Notes under the pieces: generated by a model | Database searches by the model: none | What the model saw: the letters and a program-made list of their open reading frames with translations, nothing else | What the model was told of the DNA's origin: nothing | Assembly (NCBI RefSeq): GCF_004798705.1 | Contig: NZ_CP039290.1 | Span: 434,001-498,000 of the forward strand | Direction: 5' to 3' | Length of the DNA stretch: 64,000 bases | From: Arthrobacter sp. PAMC25564 | GTDB taxonomy: Bacteria > Actinomycetota > Actinomycetes > Actinomycetales > Micrococcaceae | Made by a program: the position numbers and the translations under genes | In this document: positions 4,686-63,560 of the stretch, piece after piece | Layout: every line of letters starts with the position of its first letter | How positions within the stretch are numbered: the stretch's first letter is position 1

Positions 4686-5762
4686 TCAGAGGTCGAGGTT
4701 AACGGGTCCGGCGGCTGCCGAAACGCACGTCTGGATTAGTTGGCCAGGCTCGCCGTGGATTTCGCCTGTACGCAGGTCACGGATCTGGCCGGCCCGGAGC
4801 GGAATCAGGCAGCTGTGGCAGATTCCCATGCGGCAGCCGCTGGGCATCAGCACCCCGGCGTCTTCGCCGACGTCGAGCAGGGGCGTGTCGCCATCCGCTT
4901 CGACTTCGCGGTCCGAGGCCTCAAAGGTGACCAGTCCGCCGTCGTGTCCGTCGCCGCCGGCAAGCTTGGTGCTGAAACGTTCGATGGTCAGGGTGGCACC
5001 CTCCGCATCGCCGGCAGCGCCAGCGGTTTCGGCCGCCCAGAGCGCCTCGGCGTCGTCAAGGAAGCCTTCGGGGCCGCAGGCATAGGCGGCGCGCCGGCGC
5101 CAGTCGGGGCAGAGCGCTTCCAGCTCGTCGGCGGAACTGAAGTCCTGCCGGCCGCGTTCCCCGGTGAACCAGTGGGTGACGCGGAAGTTGGGGAACTGGT
5201 CGGCGAGTTCGGCGAGTTCCTCACGGAAGATGGCGTCCGCGGCGGTCCGGGCGGTGTGGATGAGCACGACGTCGGAGTCGGGGCGGTGCGGCACGAGCGT
5301 GCGGATCATCGACATCACCGGCGTGATTCCGCTGCCGGCGGTCAGCATGAGCAGCGGACGGGGGTGTTCCGGCAGGACGAAGTCGCCCTGCGGGGGTGCC
5401 AGGAAGAGGACATCGCCGGGTTTGGTGGAATGCACGAGGGTCCCGGAGACGGCGCCCATGTCGGTGACCGTGATGGCCGGGTCCATGCCGGCCGGGGCGC
5501 TGAGCGAGTAGGAACGCCAATGGCGGACGCCGTCGAGTTCGACGCCGATGCGGGCCCACTGGCCGGCAAGGTGCGCTTGCCAGCCGCGGCCGGGACGGAA
5601 GAAAATGGTGGCGGAATCGGCCGTTTCGGGGACCACCCGGGTGACTACGCCGCGCAGTTGGCGGGCAGAAAACACAGGGTTGAACAGCGACAGAATGTCT
5701 TCTGGAGCCAGGGGGGTGGTCAGTATCGATGCGGCGCGCGCCAGCTTACGGAGCCGGATCAT
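4686..5762 (-). CDS. Flavin/[2Fe-2S] oxidoreductase, electron donor of the desaturase
   Basis: Reductase of 358 aa that passes electrons from NAD(P)H through FAD and a plant-type [2Fe-2S] centre. The order is a FAD domain with the RSYSLSA motif, a nucleotide domain with MLTAGSGITPVMSMIRTL, and a C-terminal ferredoxin domain with CRMGICHSC followed by a distal Cys in LIQTC. It starts at ATG 5762 and is the first gene of a two-gene operon with the desaturase. The context and its likeness to Rv3230c point to the desaturase as partner. The divergent PucR gene begins about 100 bp away and may control the pair. Confidence 0.9.
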   Translation of the reverse strand: MIRLRKLARAASILTTPLAPEDILSLFNPVFSARQLRGVVTRVVPETADSATIFFRPGRGWQAHLAGQWARIGVELDGVRHWRSYSLSAPAGMDPAITVTDMGAVSGTLVHSTKPGDVLFLAPPQGDFVLPEHPRPLLMLTAGSGITPVMSMIRTLVPHRPDSDVVLIHTARTAADAIFREELAELADQFPNFRVTHWFTGERGRQDFSSADELEALCPDWRRRAAYACGPEGFLDDAEALWAAETAGAAGDAEGATLTIERFSTKLAGGDGHDGGLVTFEASDREVEADGDTPLLDVGEDAGVLMPSGCRMGICHSCLIPLRAGQIRDLRTGEIHGEPGQLIQTCVSAAAGPVNLDL

Positions 5763-5859
5763 GCTTCCAGCTTATGTCAGTCCGGGTCATAACTCTTCAC
5801 CCAAGGCATACGATCATTTCCTGGAAACTATCGCCGAGAAACAAATTTTGGATCTGCCC

Positions 5860-7062
5860 ATGAATTCACCAGCCGAAAGCCGCCCCGCACCCCCCGCGTA
5901 TGACCCCCCTTGGCTGGCGCTGCCGCGGGAGGTCAGCGACATGCTCCGGCCCATGATGCCCGGCATTGTGGAGGCGATCATCGATGCCGTGCCGCAACTG
6001 GTTCCCGCCTATGCGAGGCCCATTGAAGGCCGGTTCGGCCGCGGCCTCCGGCGGGGCGTGGCCGCAGCCTTGGACCGGTTCCTGCAGCTGCCCGGGACCC
6101 GGCTTCCGGCCCTGTCCGAGGAGAGCAGGCAACTGGTGGCCGGTCTTGGCAGCGGCGAGTTCCGGCAGGGCCGGAGCATGGACGCCCTGCTGAGCGCCTA
6201 CCGGATGGGCGCCCGGGTGGTCTTCCGGGAGATGTCCCGGATGTCCGTCGAACGCCAGCTCGGCCAGAGCGTGGTCGTGGACCTGGGCGAATCGATCCTG
6301 GCGTACATTGACGAGCTGTCGGCGGTGAGCGCCGAGGCCTACGCCGTCGAACAGTCCGAGCGCGCCGGGGCGGTGGACCGGCGCCGCACCGAGCTGCTGG
6401 ATCTGTTGTTGCTCGGGCAGGCGGATGAAGCCGCCCTGCGCCAGACGGCCGCCATGGCCGACTGGTCCCTGCCGCAGCGGATGGTGGTGGTGACCCTGCC
6501 GGTGGAACGCTCGGCCGGCTTGCGGGTGCGGCTGGGAGCCCGCACGCTCGTCGTCGAACGCGAAACCGACGCCGTCGCCCTCGTCCCGGCGCAGCAGTCC
6601 AGGTCCGCGCGCGCGGACCTGGACAAGGCCCTGCTGGGGCGTGGCGCATCCGTGGGGCCGGCCGGCAGCTGGGAAAAAGTCCCGGATTCGCTGCGCCTTG
6701 CCGTGCTGGCGGCCTCCGTCCTGCCTCCGCGGGACGGGCCGGAAGACCCGCCTATCTGGGCGGACGAGCATCTGGCGGAGGTAATTCTGGGCGCGGAGCC
6801 CTCCGCGATCGCCGAGCTGGCCAACCGCCGGCTGGCGCCCCTGGAGGGCCTGCGCCCCGCCCAGCGCGAGCGGCTGGCGGAAACCCTGCTCTCCTGGCTC
6901 CGGCACTGGGGCCAACGTGGTCCGGTCGCGGCCGAACTCGGAATCCATCCGCAGACCGTGGGCTACCGGGCGGCGCAGCTGCGCGAGCTCTTCGGCGACG
7001 CCCTGGAGGATCCGGAGGCACGGTTCGAGCTGGAGCTGGCCCTCCTCGCCGGCAGGCGTTGA
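5860..7062 (+). CDS. PucR-family transcriptional regulator
   Basis: Putative DNA-binding regulator of 400 aa. The last ~60 residues form a PucR-type helix-turn-helix (HTH_30): LLSWLRHWGQRGPVAAELGI, then HPQTVGYRAAQLRELFG. The N-terminal half is helical and lacks a recognisable ligand domain; it resembles regulators adjacent to desaturase genes in actinobacteria. The start is uncertain: ATG 5860 (MNSPAES) leaves a normal divergent promoter region, whereas an in-frame ATG at 5761 would overlap the reductase start. Divergence from the reductase-desaturase pair suggests it controls membrane fatty-acid unsaturation. This is inference from position only. Confidence 0.8.
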   Translation: MNSPAESRPAPPAYDPPWLALPREVSDMLRPMMPGIVEAIIDAVPQLVPAYARPIEGRFGRGLRRGVAAALDRFLQLPGTRLPALSEESRQLVAGLGSGEFRQGRSMDALLSAYRMGARVVFREMSRMSVERQLGQSVVVDLGESILAYIDELSAVSAEAYAVEQSERAGAVDRRRTELLDLLLLGQADEAALRQTAAMADWSLPQRMVVVTLPVERSAGLRVRLGARTLVVERETDAVALVPAQQSRSARADLDKALLGRGASVGPAGSWEKVPDSLRLAVLAASVLPPRDGPEDPPIWADEHLAEVILGAEPSAIAELANRRLAPLEGLRPAQRERLAETLLSWLRHWGQRGPVAAELGIHPQTVGYRAAQLRELFGDALEDPEARFELELALLAGRR

Positions 7063-7113
7063 GCAGGGCAGGAGTTAAGCAGGGCGGGCGCTAAGCCGCC
7101 GGGCTCCTTGCCG

Positions 7114-8727
7114 CTATTTCGCCGGGTTGTGCGTGCCGATCGGCAGCAGGGTCAGGTCCGGGTGGTTCTTTTCGATCCGGCGCAGCGCCCAGACGTCGTT
7201 GAACAGCGCCAGGTACTCGCCGTCGGAACGCAGCAGCACCTCCGCGCCGGGCACGTTGGCCAGCGCCGGCATGGCATCCGCCGTCGAGATCCGGGCGATC
7301 GAATACGGCAGCCGCTCCAGCCGCATCGGCGCGCTGAAATCGTGCGCCATACGGTCTTCGACCACCTCGAACTGCATCGGGCCGACGGCGGCCAGCACGG
7401 GGGCCTGGTCGCCACGGATGTCGGAGCGGAGCACCTGGATGACGCCCTCGTGCTCGAGCTGTTCGATGCCGCGGCGGAACTGCTTGAAGCGGCTGGGGTC
7501 CTTGGACCGGGCCACTTGGAAGTGCTCCGGGGCGAACAGCGGGATCGCGGGGAATTCCACCGGCTCGTCCAGGAACAGGCTGTCTCCGACCCGCAGTGAG
7601 GAGGCGTTCACAAGCCCGACGACATCGCCGGGGAAGGCCTCGTCGATGACCTCGCGTTCGCGGCCGAAGACCTGCTGCGCGTACTTCGTGGCGAAAGACT
7701 TTCCCGTCCGGCCCTGCGTGACCACCATGCCGCGCTCGAAGATGCCGGAGCAGACCCGAATGAAGGCGACGTGGTCGCGGTGGGCCTTGTTCATGCCCGC
7801 CTGGACCTTGAAGACGAAGCCGGCGAAGGGTGCGTCGACGGGGCGCGGGGCGCCGTCGACGTCGGGCCGCGGAGCGGCGGGCGGCGCGAAGTCCACGAGG
7901 GCGTCGAGGATTTCCTTCACGCCGAAGTTCAGGGCGGCCGAGCTGAACAGGATCGGCGTGGCCTGGCCGGAGTGGAAGGCCTCGACGTCGAACCCGAGGT
8001 TGGATTCGATGACGAGCCCGGCCTCGTCCACGGCGTTGGACCAGTCATTGCCCTGGCTGGCAGCGGCCTGCTCCGGGGTGAAGTACTCGGTGATGGCGAT
8101 GTTGGCGCCGGCGTTGTTGCGCTGGAACTTCGCGAAGCGGTCGTTGCGCAGGTCCCACACGCCGCGGAAGTCGCCGGAAATGCCGACGGCCCAGGTCAGC
8201 GGCATGGGCTGGAGCCCGGTGCGCTCGGTGATCTCGTCCATCAGCGCCAGGGCGTCCAGGCCGGGCCGGTCCCATTTGTTGATCACGGTGATGATGGGCA
8301 GGTTGCGCTGCTTGCAGACCTCGAAGAGCTTCATGGTCTGCGTTTCCAGGCCCTTGGCGGCGTCCACGAGCATCACGGCGCAGTCCACGGCGGCCAGCAC
8401 CCGGTAGGTGTCCTCGGAGAAGTCGGCGTGGCCCGGGGTGTCCAGGAGGTTGATCACGGTGTCCCGGTAGGCGAACTGCAGGGCGGCCGAACTGATGGAG
8501 ATGCCGCGGTCCTTTTCCATCTGCATCCAGTCCGAGACCGTTTCCTTGCGGTTGGCCTTGCCGCTGGACGCACCGGCCGTGCCGATCACCTTGGCGTGCA
8601 GCGCGAGCGCCTCGGTCAGCGTGGACTTGCCGGCGTCGGGATGGGAAATGACCGCGAAAGTCCGACGCCGGGCCGCCTGCTTGTGAATCTCCTGGACTCG
8701 TGCGGGGCTAACGACTTCTTGAGACAC
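7114..8727 (-). CDS. prfC: Peptide chain release factor 3
   Basis: Translational GTPase of 537 aa that removes RF1/RF2 from the ribosome after termination. G-domain motifs are intact: G1 SHPDAGKSTLTE, G3 DTPGHADF and G4 NKWD. The C-terminal region contains the RF3-specific segment QFEVVEDRM. The GTG at 8727 (SQEVVSPARVQEIHKQ) is chosen because it gives the family's usual length (~530 aa); the upstream in-frame extension is rich in Arg, Pro and Ser and unlike coding sequence. It lies between the PucR gene and the divergent disA. Confidence 0.95.
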   Translation of the reverse strand: MSQEVVSPARVQEIHKQAARRRTFAVISHPDAGKSTLTEALALHAKVIGTAGASSGKANRKETVSDWMQMEKDRGISISSAALQFAYRDTVINLLDTPGHADFSEDTYRVLAAVDCAVMLVDAAKGLETQTMKLFEVCKQRNLPIITVINKWDRPGLDALALMDEITERTGLQPMPLTWAVGISGDFRGVWDLRNDRFAKFQRNNAGANIAITEYFTPEQAAASQGNDWSNAVDEAGLVIESNLGFDVEAFHSGQATPILFSSAALNFGVKEILDALVDFAPPAAPRPDVDGAPRPVDAPFAGFVFKVQAGMNKAHRDHVAFIRVCSGIFERGMVVTQGRTGKSFATKYAQQVFGREREVIDEAFPGDVVGLVNASSLRVGDSLFLDEPVEFPAIPLFAPEHFQVARSKDPSRFKQFRRGIEQLEHEGVIQVLRSDIRGDQAPVLAAVGPMQFEVVEDRMAHDFSAPMRLERLPYSIARISTADAMPALANVPGAEVLLRSDGEYLALFNDVWALRRIEKNHPDLTLLPIGTHNPAK

Positions 8728-56091: not shown

Positions 56092-56186
56092 GAAGAATTG
56101 CCTCACAACGTCCCCGGGGCACCCACCGCCGCCTGGCGCGGACCTCCCGACCATCCGTCCAGCACTCTCCAATGAAGGAGCACGCC

Positions 56187-57569
56187 ATGACCGAGAACCT
56201 GACCCATGTCCGCGAGGTCCTTGCAGACGCCGTGATCGACGACCGTGAGAACGGCGTCATCCGGGCCAAGCGCGAAATTTTTACCGATGAAGATATTTTT
56301 GAACTGGAGATGAAACACATCTTCGAGGGCAACTGGGTTTATCTCGCCCACGAGTCCCAGATCCCCAACGTCGGGGACTACTTCACCACCAACATCGGCC
56401 GCACTCCCGTGGTGATCACCCGCGACAAGGACGAAAACCTCAATTGCATCGTCAACGCCTGCTCACACCGCGGCGCCATGCTGTGCCGTCGCAAGACGGA
56501 TAACCGCACCACTTTCACCTGCCCGTTCCACGGCTGGACGTTCAAGAACTCCGGTGAGCTGCTGAAGGTCAAAGACTCCCGCAACGCCGGCTACCCGGAG
56601 ACTTTCAACAAAGAGGGCTCCCACGACCTCACCAAGGTCGCCCGCTTCGACTCCTACCGCGGCTTCCTCTTTGGTTCCTTGAAGGCGGATGTGCTCCCGC
56701 TCGAGGAGCACCTGGGGGACGCTACCAAGGTGATCGACTCCATCGTGGACCAGTCCCCGGAGGGACTTGAGGTGCTGCGCGGGTCGTCCACCTATACCTA
56801 TGACGGCAACTGGAAGGTGCAGGCCGAGAACGGCGCCGACGGCTACCATGTCACGGCCGTGCACTGGAACTACGCCGCCACCACGGCCCGCCGCAGCGCT
56901 GGCGACTCCGCCAACACCACCAAGGCCATGGACGCCGGCAAGTGGGGCAAGGTCAAGGGCGGTTTCTATTCCTACGAACACGGACACCTGCTGCTGTGGC
57001 AGGAATGGACCAACCCGGAGGACCGTCCTCTGTGGGACCGCCGCGAGGAGCTCGTTGCAAAGTACGGCGAGGAGATGGCGAACTTCATGATCAACATCTC
57101 GCGGAACCTCTGCCTGTACCCCAATGTCTACATCATGGACCAATTCTCCTCGCAGATCCGCCACTTCCGTCCCATCTCCGCGGACCAGACCGAGGTGACG
57201 ATTTACTGCATCGCGCCCAAGGGTGAATCGCAGGAGAACCGGTCCAAGCGCATCCGACAGTACGAGGACTTCTTCAACGCCACCGGCATGGCCACACCCG
57301 ACGACCTTGAGGAGTTCCGGTCCTGCAACAAGACCTACTGGGCCACCTCGGCCCCATGGAACGACATGACCCGCGGGTCCACCCATGAGATTGCCGGCCC
57401 CGACGAACAGGCCCAGGCGCTGGGCATGACCAAGGTCATCGCTTCCGGGGTGCGCACCGAGGACGAGGGGCTCTACCCCGTCCAGCACGGGTACTGGAAG
57501 GAAGTCATGGACCGGGCGCTGGCGGAAGAGGAGCACTCCGCACTGCATACCGTTCCCGTCACCGCCTGA
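56187..57569 (+). CDS. benA: Benzoate 1,2-dioxygenase, large (alpha) subunit
   Basis: Ring-hydroxylating oxygenase of 460 aa that adds O2 to benzoate. The Rieske cluster ligands are Cys92-His94 and Cys112-His115 (CSHRG, CPFHGW). The mononuclear iron site is formed by [14 protein letters not shown] (Asp218 bridging, His221, His226) and a later Asp. ATG 56187 has GAAGGAG; an in-frame ATG 15 nt upstream overlaps that site. First gene of benABCD. Confidence 0.95.
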
Positions 57570-57605: not shown

Positions 57606-58142
57606 ATGACAAACCTGACCAGACCAACTGCGGCACTCAAGACCGTCGAGGAGATCGCCACCCTCGAAACTGTCCGTGCCTTTCTGTACAAGGAAGCCCG
57701 CCTGCTGGACGAGCGCCAGTTCGACGAGTGGCTTCAGTGCTACCACCCGGACTCCGAGTTCTGGATGCCCGCATGGGACGTCGACGACCGTCTGACCGAG
57801 GACCCGCAGAACGAGATCTCGCTCATCTACTACGACAACCGCGGCGGCATTGAAGACCGTGTCTTCCGGATCAAGACGGACCGGTCTTCAGCCACCTCCC
57901 TCCCGGAGCCCCGTACCGGGCACAACATCACAGACATCGAGATCGTGGGGCACGACGGTGACCAAGTGAAGGTGCGCTTCAACTGGTTCACCCTGTACTT
58001 CCGCTACAACACCACAGACACGTACTTCGGGACCAGCTTCTACACGATCGACCTCGCCGGCGCCGAGCCGGTAATCATGAAAAAGAAGGTCGTTCTGAAG
58101 AACGACTACATCCACCACGTGGTGGACGTCTACATGATCTGA
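57606..58142 (+). CDS. benB: Benzoate 1,2-dioxygenase, small (beta) subunit
   Basis: 178-aa structural subunit of the alpha3beta3 oxygenase. It shows the typical RQFDEWLQCYHPDSEFWMPAW and the C-terminal KKVVLKNDYIHHVVDVYMI. It follows benA by 36 nt. No catalytic metal site is expected in this subunit. Confidence 0.95.
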   Translation: MTNLTRPTAALKTVEEIATLETVRAFLYKEARLLDERQFDEWLQCYHPDSEFWMPAWDVDDRLTEDPQNEISLIYYDNRGGIEDRVFRIKTDRSSATSLPEPRTGHNITDIEIVGHDGDQVKVRFNWFTLYFRYNTTDTYFGTSFYTIDLAGAEPVIMKKKVVLKNDYIHHVVDVYMI

Positions 58143-58267: not shown

Positions 58268-59839
58268 ATGGGCCACAAAGTAGCCCTCAGCTTCGAGGAT
58301 GGCGTCACCAAAGTCATCAAGGTCGGCGACCACGAGACCGTGATGGACGCCGCGTACAAGGCACGCATCAACATTCCATCAGACTGTCGGGACGGTGCCT
58401 GCGGCACCTGCAAGGCCTTCTGTGATTCCGGCACCTTTGACCCGGGCGACTACATTGACGACGCGATGACGGAGGAAGAGCTCGAAAAGGGCTACCTGCT
58501 CACCTGCCAGGCTGTCCCGGAGTCGGATCTGGCCATCCAGATTCCTGCCACGTCGGAATCCGCGAAAACCTCAGCCTCCACCTTCACATCCACCATGAAG
58601 GAACTCAACAAGCACTCGGAAACCACGGTTTCCTTCGCCCTTGAGGTCGAAAACCGGGACGCCCTGGCCTTCCTCCCGGGCCAGTACGTCAACCTCAAGG
58701 TCCCCGGAACCGACGCGGAGCGCTCCTACTCCTTCAGCAGCGGCCCCGAGGTGCAGGATGCCTCGTTCATGGTGCGGGTCACACCGCAGGGCGCGATGTC
58801 CGAATACCTGCGCGACAGGGCGGCGGTGGGCGACACCATCGAGTTCACCGGTCCGTACGGCTCGTTCTTCCTGCGGGAGCCCAAGCGCCCCCTGCTGCTC
58901 CTGGCAGGCGGCACGGGCCTGGCCCCGCTCCTGTCCATCCTCGAGAAGCTCTCCGAGAACCCGCCGTCGGTACCGGTCCATCTGATTTACGGCGTGTCCC
59001 GCGAGGCGGACATCGCCGGGCTGGACTGGCTGCGGGAATATGAGGCGAAGGTACCCGGATTCACCTGGGACTACATTGCTTCCGAACCCGGCACGTCCGC
59101 TCCCCACACGGGCTATGTCCCACAGATCATCGAACCCTCCCACCTGAACGACGGCGATGTTGACATCTACCTGTGCGGCCCGCCGCCCATGGTCAATGCC
59201 GTTTCGAAGTGGCTGGACTCCGAGGGCATCAAGCCCGCCAACTTCTACTTCGAGCGCTTTGCCCCGAAAGAGGCCACCGGCGGCGACGCCGAAACGGGGG
59301 CACCGGCACCCACGGAGAAGATCCAGGCCGAAGGCGACACGATGACCCGCAGCGAGGCCGTCTCCTCCCTGGAGACCGGCCGGCTGGATTTCCGCAAGGA
59401 GGACAGCTTCGCCCAACTGGACGCCCGCATGGGCCTGGAGCTCGCGGTGAGCGAGCTGATGCTGGGCCGCCTCAGCGAGGAACAGCTGTCCCAGTTCCGG
59501 CGGCTCGCCGAAGCCACCACGCGCTCTGTGGCTGCCGGCACCGTCCGGGAACCGGATGAGTTCGCGCGGACCAACGAGGAGTTCCACGAATACCTCTTCA
59601 TTGTCTGCGACAACCCCATGCTGCTTGAGTCCTACCGCAGGCTCGACGTCCACGCACAGATGGCTGCGGCCTTCGAACCGGGGACCCGAATCTTCGAGCG
59701 GGTCACGCAGGACCACCTTGATATCGTTGATGCCTTCGAGCGCCAGGACAAGGCTCGGGTGCGGGAGGTCATGATGGCCCACGCACGGGACGCCAAGGAA
59801 ACCATGGCCGCGGCGATCGATGCCAAGGCCGGCCGCTGA
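58268..59839 (+). CDS. benC: Benzoate dioxygenase reductase BenC fused to an FCD ligand-binding domain
   Basis: 523 aa, against about 340 for the classical BenC. Residues 1-~95 are a plant-type [2Fe-2S] ferredoxin (Cys40, 45, 48, 80); ~100-200 a FAD domain with RSYSFSS; ~205-345 an NAD domain with LLLLAGGTGLAPLLSIL. An Ala/Thr/Pro/Glu linker follows, and then from ~370 an all-helical domain like the GntR/FadR FCD effector domain: NEEFHEYLFIVCDNPMLLES and QDHLDIVDAFERQDKARVREVMMAH. There is no winged helix. An internal ATG (59342) at the linker could produce the FCD part alone. The stop overlaps benD (TGATG). Such fusions may occur in other actinobacterial BenC proteins. Confidence 0.9.
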   Translation: MGHKVALSFEDGVTKVIKVGDHETVMDAAYKARINIPSDCRDGACGTCKAFCDSGTFDPGDYIDDAMTEEELEKGYLLTCQAVPESDLAIQIPATSESAKTSASTFTSTMKELNKHSETTVSFALEVENRDALAFLPGQYVNLKVPGTDAERSYSFSSGPEVQDASFMVRVTPQGAMSEYLRDRAAVGDTIEFTGPYGSFFLREPKRPLLLLAGGTGLAPLLSILEKLSENPPSVPVHLIYGVSREADIAGLDWLREYEAKVPGFTWDYIASEPGTSAPHTGYVPQIIEPSHLNDGDVDIYLCGPPPMVNAVSKWLDSEGIKPANFYFERFAPKEATGGDAETGAPAPTEKIQAEGDTMTRSEAVSSLETGRLDFRKEDSFAQLDARMGLELAVSELMLGRLSEEQLSQFRRLAEATTRSVAAGTVREPDEFARTNEEFHEYLFIVCDNPMLLESYRRLDVHAQMAAAFEPGTRIFERVTQDHLDIVDAFERQDKARVREVMMAHARDAKETMAAAIDAKAGR

Positions 59840-60666
59840 TGTCGCGCCCTTATGCGGGACAGTTCGTTACTCCGGGCCGGTACGCCGGCAAGGTAGCCGT
59901 CGTGACGGGCTCCGCCCAGGGTATTGGCCAGAAAGTGGCCGAGCGGATCGGTGCCGAGGGCGGCGCGGTGGTCCTGGTGGACCGGTCCGGACTGGTCCAT
60001 GACGTGGCACGGGAGATCCAGGAGGCCGCACAGGGTTCCGGTTCAGGAGGCTCGGCTACCGCTGTGACCGCTGATCTCGAGACCTTCGCAGGGGCGCAGC
60101 AAGCCGTCGAGGCGGCGCTGGCCGCCCACGGCCGGGTCGACGTGCTGGTCAACAATGTAGGCGGCACCATCTGGGCCCGCCCCTACGAAGAGTACGACGA
60201 GGACAAGATCGAGAAGGAGATCCGCCGCTCGCTCTTTCCCACCCTCTGGACCTGCCGGGCTGTGCTGCCGGCCATGCTGCAACAGGGTTCGGGCACCATC
60301 GTCAACGTTTCCTCGGTGGCCACCCGCGGTTTGCACCGCGTGCCTTACGCGGCTGCGAAGGGTGGCGTTAATGCCCTGACGCAGTCGTTGGCGATGGAGG
60401 TGGGCGGACGCGGCATCCGCGTGGTCGCGACCGCCCCGGGCGGCACCGAGGCACCGCCCCGCAAGGTCAAGCGTGGGCCGGAGGCTGAGTCCACCACGGA
60501 AAAGGCTTGGTACCAGGCGATCGTTGACCAAACCGTGGAGTCGTCCTTTTTGAAGCGCTACGGAACCCTGGACGAACAGGCCGCGCCCATCGTATTCCTC
60601 GGATCAGATGAAGCGTCCTACCTGACCGGCAGCATCCTTCCAGTCGCTGGCGGAGACCTGGGCTAA
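59839..60666 (+). CDS. benD: Benzoate diol (1,6-dihydroxycyclohexa-2,4-diene-1-carboxylate) dehydrogenase
   Basis: SDR of 275 aa that oxidises and decarboxylates the benzoate cis-diol to catechol. It has the cofactor motif TGSAQGIGQ, VNNVGG, Ser in NVSSVATRG and the YAAAK catalytic pair, plus the BenD/XylL-like PGGTEAPPRKVKR segment. The ATG overlaps the benC stop, so it should be translationally coupled. Confidence 0.94.
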   Translation: MSRPYAGQFVTPGRYAGKVAVVTGSAQGIGQKVAERIGAEGGAVVLVDRSGLVHDVAREIQEAAQGSGSGGSATAVTADLETFAGAQQAVEAALAAHGRVDVLVNNVGGTIWARPYEEYDEDKIEKEIRRSLFPTLWTCRAVLPAMLQQGSGTIVNVSSVATRGLHRVPYAAAKGGVNALTQSLAMEVGGRGIRVVATAPGGTEAPPRKVKRGPEAESTTEKAWYQAIVDQTVESSFLKRYGTLDEQAAPIVFLGSDEASYLTGSILPVAGGDLG

Positions 60667-60715
60667 GGCCGCCGGTGATGGATGCCCGCCGCCAGGGCCG
60701 GGCGGCCCGCTCCGG

Positions 60716-60721
60716 TAGACT
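60716..60721 (+). promoter_or_regulatory. -10 box TAGACT before benR, likely leaderless start
   Basis: TAGACT lies 7 nt before the ATG at 60729. It suggests the activator has its own leaderless transcript besides any read-through from benD. Confidence 0.5.
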
Positions 60722-60728
60722 TGCCGTC

Positions 60729-63560
60729 ATGACGGCGGGCTCCATATACGGTGAAATGGCGGAGGATTTGCCGCTCCTTGGCCGGTCCGGGGTCTTCGAG
60801 GAGCTGTTGGAAATTCTCCGCACGGTCCGCAAGGGCAATGTGGGCGCAGTGGTGATCACCGGTCCATCCGGGTCCGGGAAGACCGCCGTCCTGGAGTTCT
60901 TCCTTGAGCACTGCCGCACGGTGGCCCGTGGTGTCCGTGTCCTGTCCGCCACGGGCGACGAATGGGAGGCGCAGTTTGCCCTCGCCGGCTACTCCCAGCT
61001 CATGCTCACGTTGCCGCCGCGCTCGGCAAAGGATTACGACGGCGGCCCGGCCTTGCCCGCGGGCCCCGTCGCGGCTCTTACCCCCGCCCAGGTGGTCAAT
61101 TACGCCTCGACCCTCACCACCCATCTCGAAGGACTGCAGTCCCACGGCAGCGTAGTTGTCGCCGTCGACGACGTTCACAAACTCGACGTGGAGAGCCTGC
61201 GCATCCTCACCTTCGTCATGCGCCGGCTGCACGGAAAACGGATCATGTTCGTACTCACGCTCAACCCTGAGGACGCGCCCCGGGTCCCCGCAGGTGCGCT
61301 GGACTTTCTCACGGGCCACCAGGTCACCCGTATCCCGCTGGATCCGCTCACCCCGCAGCAGGTCCAGGATCTCGCCCGGCGGGTGCTCGGCATCGACCTC
61401 AGCGTGACGGCGGCCCACCGCCTGGTCCAGCACACCGGAGGGCTTGCGCAACCGATCGTGGAGCTGCTGCGCGAGTTGCCGCCGGAGACCTGGCAGAGGT
61501 GGTTTCCCTCGCTGCCTCCCACTTCCCGGGTGCGTGCCCGGGTGCGCAGTATCCTCGGCGCAGCGTCCCCGGGGCTGGTCTCTATCGCGGAGGCTGCATC
61601 CTTGCTCGGGCGCAGCGCCGGCCTGGCAGAGGTTTCCCAAGTCAGCGGGGTGGAGTCCGTCATGGAAGTCCTGGACGAAGGACACCGCGCCGGGCTGCTG
61701 GGGTTGTCTGTTGATCAGGCCCGTTCCGCGGTCGTTTTCTTTGAACCTGGCACCGCCGAGGCCATCTACGAACAGATCGTTCCCAGCCGGCGCATTGCGC
61801 TGCACCGGCTGGCCGCTGAGGCCGTGCAGCCCGAGGGCGAACGGTTGGGCCACCGTGTCTCCGCGACGCCCGGTGCAGACGAGGCCCTGGCCGAGGAGTT
61901 GGAGGAGTTCGCCCGCTGCCAAGCCCTGGTGGGAGCGTGGCAGGATGCCTCAACAGCTCTGTTCTCCGCGTCCCGGCTTTCCCGGGACATCCGCTCCCGG
62001 AACGACAGGCTCCTGAGGGCCGTGGATGCCCTGGTGGGTTCCGGCGACATTGCCCAGGCGCAGATGTGGGCCGCAGCCGTGGACGCCCTGCCGTCCTCGT
62101 CGCTCCGCTCCTCCGTGTTGGGCTACCTCTCCACGGCGTCGGGACAGAACGGCAGCGCGCAGACGCAGCTGGAGATGGCGTGGCGGACCTGCAACCCGCA
62201 GCGTGATCCCTCCGCCGCAGCGCAAGTAGCGCAGCGCTTCGTTCTGCACGGGGTAGCGTCCTGGGACGGCCCGCTGATTACCGGTTGGGCAGAGCGGGCC
62301 ATGGAACTTACGCAGCCGGAAACCCCCGCCCACATTGAGTCAGAGGCGATCTACGGCCTGGGCCTGTATGCGCAGGGCCGGCTGGCAGAGGCGGAGGCCT
62401 CCTATAACCGGGCCTTCGAACACGCTGCCGAGAACGCCCAGAAGCAGCGGGTCCAGATGGGTGCCGGCTGGCTGGCACTGCGCCTTGACAACGTTGAGTC
62501 AGCGCTGGTGAACTTCGAGTCCGCTGCTCCCACGGAGTACCGCGGCGGTTCGATGCGGATTTCCCTGTGGGCCGAGGCCTGGCTGGCGCGCACCCACCTG
62601 ATCCTCGGCAACTGGGATGCCGCCGCCGCCACCGTGGCGCGCGCATCCGTGCGCCTCGAGACCTCGCGGATGCCGCTGATCCGCCCCCTGCTCTACTGGA
62701 CCGCGGCCGAGCTCTGGTCCATGCGCGGAGACTGGGAGCGGGCCCGATACTACGTTTCGCAGGCCGCGGTGCAGCCGGGGACGTACTGTGCCATGCAGGT
62801 GCCGGCAAGCCTCGCCCGTGCCCGCTTTCACGAGGCGAGGGCCGACTATGAAAGCGCTTTGGCTGTGCTGCAGCCGCTGACGGAGCTGGACCCGTGGACG
62901 GAGAACCGGGTGTCCTTCTGGCCGTGGCAGGACACATATGTCAACGCGCTTGTCATGACTGACCAGCTCGACGCTGCCGACTCGTTCCTCACGGCGTTCG
63001 AGCGCGTGCCGCGCGAGCGGGAAATACCCTCGGACCTGGCGCGCATGGCCTGGGCCAGGGGCCGGCTCGTGGCCGCGCAGGGGGACCCCGACACGGCCAG
63101 GGAACATTTTGAGGCATCCCTGGGCCACCTCCGGGGGCTCAACCGGCCGTATCTACGGGCCCGGGTAAGTTTTGCCTTTGGCCAGAGCATGCGGCGGGCG
63201 GGCAAACGGCGTCTGGCGTCCACAGTCCTGCGCGCGGCCCGTGACCTGTACGACTCCCTGGGGGCGGCCACCTACGTGGAACGGTGCGACCGGGAGTTGG
63301 CGGCCACAGGCCTCGACGTCGGGAACATGCCCGACCCGGCCGACCCCGTGCTCACTGCCGTCAGCCGCCACCAGGTTCAGCTCACTGCGCAGGAGCAGGC
63401 GGTGGCCAGGCTGGTGGCGACCGGGGCTACCAACAAGGAGGCGGCCCGGGCTCTGTTCGTGGCGGAGAAAACGGTGCAGTACCACCTGACGCGGCTCTAC
63501 AGGAAAATGGGAATCCGCTCCCGCAGTGAACTCGCGGCCGCGTTCCGCGCCAAGGACTGA
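60729..63560 (+). CDS. benR: LuxR-family (STAND/LAL-type) transcriptional activator, BenR-like
   Basis: Large regulator of 943 aa. The N-terminal NTPase has Walker A GPSGSGKT (45-52) and Walker B VVVAVDDVHKL. The middle consists of helical TPR-like repeats (for example GRLAEAEASYNRAFEHA, GDPDTAREHFEASLGHL). The C-terminal LuxR helix-turn-helix reads LTAQEQAVARLVATGATNKE and AEKTVQYHLTRLYRKMGI. The position directly behind benD matches benR of Corynebacterium glutamicum, a LuxR-type regulator of the ben-cat genes. It most likely activates catA and benABCD in response to benzoate or a metabolite. Confidence 0.9.
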   Translation: MTAGSIYGEMAEDLPLLGRSGVFEELLEILRTVRKGNVGAVVITGPSGSGKTAVLEFFLEHCRTVARGVRVLSATGDEWEAQFALAGYSQLMLTLPPRSAKDYDGGPALPAGPVAALTPAQVVNYASTLTTHLEGLQSHGSVVVAVDDVHKLDVESLRILTFVMRRLHGKRIMFVLTLNPEDAPRVPAGALDFLTGHQVTRIPLDPLTPQQVQDLARRVLGIDLSVTAAHRLVQHTGGLAQPIVELLRELPPETWQRWFPSLPPTSRVRARVRSILGAASPGLVSIAEAASLLGRSAGLAEVSQVSGVESVMEVLDEGHRAGLLGLSVDQARSAVVFFEPGTAEAIYEQIVPSRRIALHRLAAEAVQPEGERLGHRVSATPGADEALAEELEEFARCQALVGAWQDASTALFSASRLSRDIRSRNDRLLRAVDALVGSGDIAQAQMWAAAVDALPSSSLRSSVLGYLSTASGQNGSAQTQLEMAWRTCNPQRDPSAAAQVAQRFVLHGVASWDGPLITGWAERAMELTQPETPAHIESEAIYGLGLYAQGRLAEAEASYNRAFEHAAENAQKQRVQMGAGWLALRLDNVESALVNFESAAPTEYRGGSMRISLWAEAWLARTHLILGNWDAAAATVARASVRLETSRMPLIRPLLYWTAAELWSMRGDWERARYYVSQAAVQPGTYCAMQVPASLARARFHEARADYESALAVLQPLTELDPWTENRVSFWPWQDTYVNALVMTDQLDAADSFLTAFERVPREREIPSDLARMAWARGRLVAAQGDPDTAREHFEASLGHLRGLNRPYLRARVSFAFGQSMRRAGKRRLASTVLRAARDLYDSLGAATYVERCDRELAATGLDVGNMPDPADPVLTAVSRHQVQLTAQEQAVARLVATGATNKEAARALFVAEKTVQYHLTRLYRKMGIRSRSELAAAFRAKD

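Follow-up and report, generated by a model that had tools for sequence, protein, structure and literature searches.

A benzoate dioxygenase reductase from Arthrobacter fused to an FCD domain without a DNA-binding domain

The window analysed here, a stretch of 64,000 nucleotides from Arthrobacter sp. PAMC25564, contains a benC gene (58268..59839, + strand) whose 523 aa product joins a complete electron-transfer reductase to an FCD domain and has no DNA-binding domain. FCD domains are the ligand sensors of GntR regulators. We propose, with a probability of roughly 0.4, that the FCD of BenC binds a carboxylic acid of the pathway and thereby tunes electron delivery to the dioxygenase.

The gene lies in a ben operon, all genes of which are on the + strand. 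Upstream of it are benA (benzoate 1,2-dioxygenase large subunit; 56172..57569; TIGR03229, 818.3 bits, cut-off 780.95) and benB (small subunit; 57606..58142; TIGR03232, 266.1 bits, cut-off 225.55), and downstream follows benD (benzoate diol dehydrogenase; 59839..60666; NF040811 BenD, 426.4 bits, cut-off 380), each scoring above its own NCBIfam cut-off. The stop codon of benC and the start codon of benD overlap by one base in a TGATG (59837..59841), as read from the sequence. Since benC stops at 59839 and benD begins there in a different frame, the window contains no BenC-FCD-BenD triple fusion, and BenD, the next gene and the next pathway step, is a separate protein. It is followed by a large AAA/LuxR-type gene (60675..63560; AAA_16 and GerE matches), likely the transcription regulator of the ben operon. 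A split or frame-shifted benC, in which the tail would be a separate gene, was ruled out; the benC-FCD frame is open and conserved.

Residues 3-333 (58274..59266, +) comprise the 2Fe-2S, FAD and NAD domains of the reductase and match the BenC equivalog NF040810 (1.4e-142; 474.8 bits, cut-off 430). The full-length structure model matched the BenC crystal structure 1krh with 48% identity and a TM-score by target of 0.92. The likeness to 1krh and NF040810 extends over the reductase domains to about residue 335; 1krh, with 337 residues, ends after the reductase, whereas the window BenC continues with a linker and the FCD. The linker (residues 334-376; 59267..59395, +) was modelled with low confidence (pLDDT <50 for 331-376), so that contact between FCD and reductase cannot be judged from the model. 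The FCD domain itself spans seven helices (residues 377-522; 59396..59833, +). A sequence-only reading of this DNA had assigned the tail to the FCD family and had seen no DNA-binding domain. Both assignments held: the tail scored 65.3 bits with PF07729 (gathering score 24.3), and the predicted models and structural fold matches agreed on an all-helical FCD fold. A Pfam scan of the protein found no HTH family at E <= 1; a reductase and a linker stand before the FCD where GntR/FadR transcription regulators carry an N-terminal winged HTH.

Conservation within the domain was analysed in an alignment of FCDs from 275 proteins; of the 304 proteins collected, 276 have the domain. The Asp/Asn and three His residues that characterise the metal-binding FCD subgroup, as defined in the available portion of the Atu1419 report (PMC7797058), are all present: Asn436 (59573..59575; 272/275), His440 (59585..59587; 275/275), His483 (59714..59716; 275/275) and His505 (59780..59782; 274/274), all on the + strand. 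The reports on known FCD proteins are cited below from their available portions as well. Atu1419 binds Zn through Asn137, His141, His192 and His214; the citrate found in it contacts Arg86, Tyr133, Asn137, His141, His214, Asn221 and the Zn (PMC7797058). By spacing, these ligands and contacts correspond to N436, H440, H483, H505, R387, F432 and T512 of the window FCD. Arg387 (59426..59428, +; 273/274) thus takes the position of a carboxylate-contacting Arg (Atu1419 Arg86, DgoR R102), and Phe432 (59561..59563, +) that of Tyr133, where Tyr occurs in 156 and Phe in 118 of 275 FCDs. Thr512 (59801..59803, +; 274/274), seven residues after the last His, replaces Asn221 of Atu1419. HMMER and structural ranges place R102 and R224 of DgoR at R387 and T512; galactonate binding was no longer measurable in the R102A and R224A proteins (PMC7674646). 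The mapping onto Atu1419 and DgoR follows spacing and alignment-range ends, not a printed superposition. Among 16 other FCDs of this genome that align at position 512, only one has Thr.

The seven pocket positions had a mean entropy of 0.16 bits, compared with 1.60 for the whole FCD, and none of 100,000 random position sets was as low; the low entropy also held in 25 sequences <70% identical. The suggestion that the domain may have retained ligand binding is thus in keeping with pocket residues that show some of the strongest conservation in the FCD. Positions 390, 391 and 449 are likewise among the most conserved, yet are not among the mapped Atu1419/DgoR contacts; they may serve the fold. 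The earlier reading also took Asn in place of the usual Asp as a sign of a different ligand mode. We dropped this idea: Asn-His-His-His sites bind Ni in Ps5454 (Asn144, His148, His192, His214; PMC7674646) and Zn in Atu1419, and the first metal-site residue in 18 other FCDs of this genome is Asp in eight and Asn in six, which makes Asn436 ordinary. Among known systems, the VanR proteins Atu1419 and Ps5454 of the GntR superfamily are close to the window FCD, with their Asn-His3 metal site; they differ in carrying a winged HTH and binding DNA, whereas the window FCD is part of a redox enzyme.

The fusion is widespread without being universal. Precomputed Pfam lists contained the FCD in 110 of 120 BenC relatives (the best 120 of 5911 passing). 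Eighty named genome loci, an uneven sample formed by the best 80 of 566, comprised 28 with BenC-FCD (Pseudarthrobacter, Kocuria, Rhodococcus, Corynebacterium and others), 27 with BenC-FCD-BenD in one frame (Mycobacterium, Gordonia, Nocardia, Amycolatopsis, Kribbella and others), 11 with BenC-FCD-P450 (Paraburkholderia, Caballeronia, Burkholderia) and 14 with an FCD-less BenC. In a more even sample, 13 of 394 genomes of the host's class exceeded the BenC cut-off, ten with BenC-FCD-BenD (these loci end inside BenD), two with BenC-FCD and one without FCD. Matches in the host's family (59 in 54 of 245 genomes) ran through the FCD in 35 cases and stopped before it in 24; the host's genus gave six with FCD and two without. 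The 14 named loci and 24 family matches lacking it show that the FCD is not needed for the reductase reaction. A tblastn search (E 1e-3), which a weak FCD could escape, found no separate FCD gene near the 14 named FCD-less loci.

The BenD and P450 forms, in which the fused tail is followed by a further enzyme, had escaped the sequence-only reading, as had the one-base overlap with benD. Where BenC-FCD is a protein of its own, benD lies directly next in 28/28 named loci, with gaps that reach about 110 bases when estimated from where the alignments begin. BenD forms the C-terminal part of one chain in the BenC-FCD-BenD relatives, unlike in the window; the single chains of L061 (Amycolatopsis) and L117 (Tsukamurella plasmid) exceed both the BenC and the BenD NCBIfam cut-offs. 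The gene order in L117 is benA, benB, an 860 aa protein (6001-8583) and a regulator. Because public annotation names this protein only BenC, BenD appears to be missing from such operons. One of the 28 BenC-FCD loci, L044 of Kocuria atrinae (4951-6705), has a benC frame of 584 aa that continues into benD, whereas that of its near twin L043 does not; from the sequences, this run-on is read as a frameshift or an assembly error.

In the third architecture, a BenC-type reductase, an FCD and a cytochrome P450 form one chain of about 930 aa, found in Burkholderiaceae and others (L063, L068, L115, P0130-P0205). The Pfam scan covered L063 and L068, and the other nine named loci of this type were assigned by frame length and FCD-region search. 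In Paraburkholderia (L115, 6966-9755) benA and benB are not beside the fused gene. The FCD region of a Paraburkholderia protein as query matched 77 proteins, of which 74 list FCD and P450; a reductase domain is unlisted in seven of the 74, six of them named Kluyvera or Pseudocitrobacter. GcoB of Amycolatopsis (5ogx) is likewise a BenC-type reductase serving a P450, its partner GcoA. It is a separate protein without FCD, whereas in the Burkholderiaceae the FCD lies between reductase and P450 in one chain. In L020 and L021, one long frame holds a BenC-like reductase (34-35% identity) together with an FAD-dependent oxidoreductase, the latter only weakly matched; neither locus gave an FCD match.

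The linkers of BenC-FCD-BenD proteins contain a repeated motif, ARx[I/V]AGQx[V/L/M][F/L][P/A], with 68 copies in 37 linkers and at least one copy in 35 of them (for example at residues 370, 400 and 432 of L084; also in L088, L096 and L113). Outside the linkers no copy occurred in 27,126 residues (shuffled mean 0.04), and the window BenC lacks the motif. Of 33 spacings, 22 measured 28-38 residues and the other 11 measured 60-77. The repeat resembles a docking motif, possibly one for the dioxygenase. Pfam scans of L061, L079 and L117 found no HTH remnant in the long linkers; the repeat is there instead. The FCD-less BenC of L017 (G345) ends, from residue 358 on, in one motif copy (ARCIAGQLVF), with benD directly after. 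The single copy persisting at its end suggests that L017 probably lost its FCD recently.

Comparison of substitution rates, computed for nine of the twelve relatives loaded, gave dN/dS values of 0.10-0.21 for the FCD and 0.05-0.12 for the reductase against six near relatives, and of 0.18-0.43 and 0.14-0.22 against three farther ones. As judged from these ratios, the FCD is under purifying selection, mostly weaker than that on the reductase. A BenC-FCD profile run against 197 genomes gave five strong matches (208 bits or more), all in BenC fusions; the single other match at E 1e-14 (60.8 bits) was a 227 aa frame of ordinary regulator size. The FCD tree (145 columns) had long GntR branches and one GntR row among the BenC FCDs, and was not used for the origin. 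The reductase tree, built by a quick method with SH-aLRT support only, held 96 rows (the window, 79 loci and 16 of 206 collected proteins) and excluded sixteen near-copies, L006 and L009; P0178, P0186 and P0203 were labelled as P450 forms and L012, which is cut by the locus end, as BenC-FCD-BenD. On this tree FCD presence required at least five changes, BenC-FCD-BenD two and BenC-FCD-P450 one, with gain and loss indistinguishable.

At the junction occupied by the FCD, the product of one enzyme is the substrate of the next, and NADH spent by one is returned by the other. In the mechanism we propose, the FCD would bind a divalent metal and an acid would sit on this metal with its carboxylate held by Arg387. 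In ben operons the ligand would be the dioxygenase product, benzoate cis-diol (1,6-dihydroxycyclohexa-2,4-diene-1-carboxylate). This diol is the first candidate because it is an alpha-hydroxy acid like several FCD ligands, namely citrate for CitO (PMC4746285), D-galactonate for DgoR (PMC7674646) and 2-hydroxyglutarate (L2HG in the titles of structure entries matched by fold, taken as L-2-hydroxyglutarate). It also links BenA-C to BenD, and its OH and COOH share one carbon, as would suit an Arg-plus-metal pocket. Atu1419 differs in this respect: its citrate is fortuitous and mostly in an orientation that its authors call non-productive, and its true effector, N5,N10-methylenetetrahydrofolate, is no hydroxy acid (PMC7797058). 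Binding would alter the packing of the FCD on the reductase or on BenD, and the spending of electrons would not outpace the removal of the diol and the return of NADH by BenD. Given the candidacy of the diol and the place of the FCD between pathway steps, a valve or hand-off role appears likely. The most specific form of this proposal is tentative. Here the FCD would act as a flux valve on the enzyme, sensing the alpha-hydroxy acid product on its metal and matching electron supply to BenD; a BenC-FCD-BenD chain would unite the use of NADH, the sensing of the product and the return of NADH, and its repeat linker would dock on the dioxygenase, and the same module would serve another oxygenase in the P450 forms. 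There the ligand is probably not the benzoate diol, since those loci lack benAB, yet the site is the same.

A purely mechanical role is a real possibility, though we would not bet on it. The FCD would then serve only as a folded tether or as a dimerising part and hold BenC close to BenD (or the P450), so that BenC reuses the NADH of BenD and the unstable diol is handed over, while the metal site only holds the fold. The fusion orders BenC-FCD-BenD and BenC-FCD-P450 and the long repeat-bearing linkers of the former would suit such a part, as would the retention of the FCD on the reductase in BenC-FCD forms and on the P450 in proteins listing FCD and P450 only. The title of a matched structure entry calls the FCD of PdhR a dimerization domain, and metal strongly stabilises Atu1419, which keeps a scaffold possible: exchange of its three His for Ala lowered the Tm from 52.6 to 34 °C, with the protein still folded, tetrameric and promoter-binding (PMC7797058). 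By analogy, the metal of the BenC FCD may be mainly structural. However, a pure tether leaves unexplained why Arg387 and Thr512, both at positions of ligand contacts, are near-invariant, and BenD is not covalently tethered in BenC-FCD forms such as the window. Gating by substrate, the idea of the sequence-only reading, appears unlikely: benzoate on the FCD would open electron flow only when substrate is present. The kept carboxylate-binding pocket agrees with it, and the hydrophobic residues prevailing at positions 459, 461, 465, 469 and 479 would favour an aromatic ring, provided that these residues line the pocket; against it, several FCD ligands are hydroxy acids. Moreover, in Rieske oxygenases in general the substrate gates their own reduction, and the dioxygenase would already provide this control.

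The remaining explanations are improbable to different degrees. As FCDs are parts of transcription regulators and a regulator gene lies two genes downstream of benC, BenC might use the FCD to signal flux or ligand to a transcription regulator such as this LuxR-type neighbour. This is very doubtful, and a link between the two was dropped: the regulator occurs with and without the FCD, beside 12 of 14 FCD-less BenC genes and 49 of 55 BenC-FCD and BenC-FCD-BenD genes, and was not found beside any of the 11 P450 forms. It is more improbable still that the domain is a relic without function, a piece of a GntR gene that was picked up by readthrough and then kept; FCD-less BenC proteins are common, but the near-invariant pocket in 275 domains, the near-relative dN/dS and retention in three architectures all speak against it. 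Least probable of all is an FCD made as a separate sensor from the internal ATG at 59342..59344 (+), as the earlier reading had suggested. A GAAGG stretch lies seven bases before this ATG and Met is found in 9/13 nearest genes, yet among 60 wider relatives that have the motif, just 10 carry Met there (Ile 31, Leu 15, Val 4). With Met kept in near relatives only, we rejected an internal start; the codon is probably not a translation start.

Distantly related bacteria retain a non-DNA-binding FCD on a redox enzyme, and all three architectures place it at the same junction. Should the domain sense an acid of the pathway, metabolism would directly control the electron supply of an oxygenase; this would bear on uncoupling and on the waste of NADH during aromatic degradation and would offer a ready-made control part for engineered oxygenases. 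Among the matches listed in the open-access literature we found no study of the BenC FCD, of BenC-FCD-BenD or of BenC-FCD-P450. Databases already name some BenC-FCD proteins FCD domain-containing, and a Rhodococcus toluene study labels benC in this way, with no comment on the domain in the available portion of its text (PMC11858498). Some proteins annotated only as BenC also carry BenD (L117) or P450 (L115; FT54 record). Another FCD of this genome (L133; G000:C1:2669900-2670900) is encoded by a frame of just 158 aa, which is short for HTH plus FCD, and is possibly a second FCD without a DNA-binding part.
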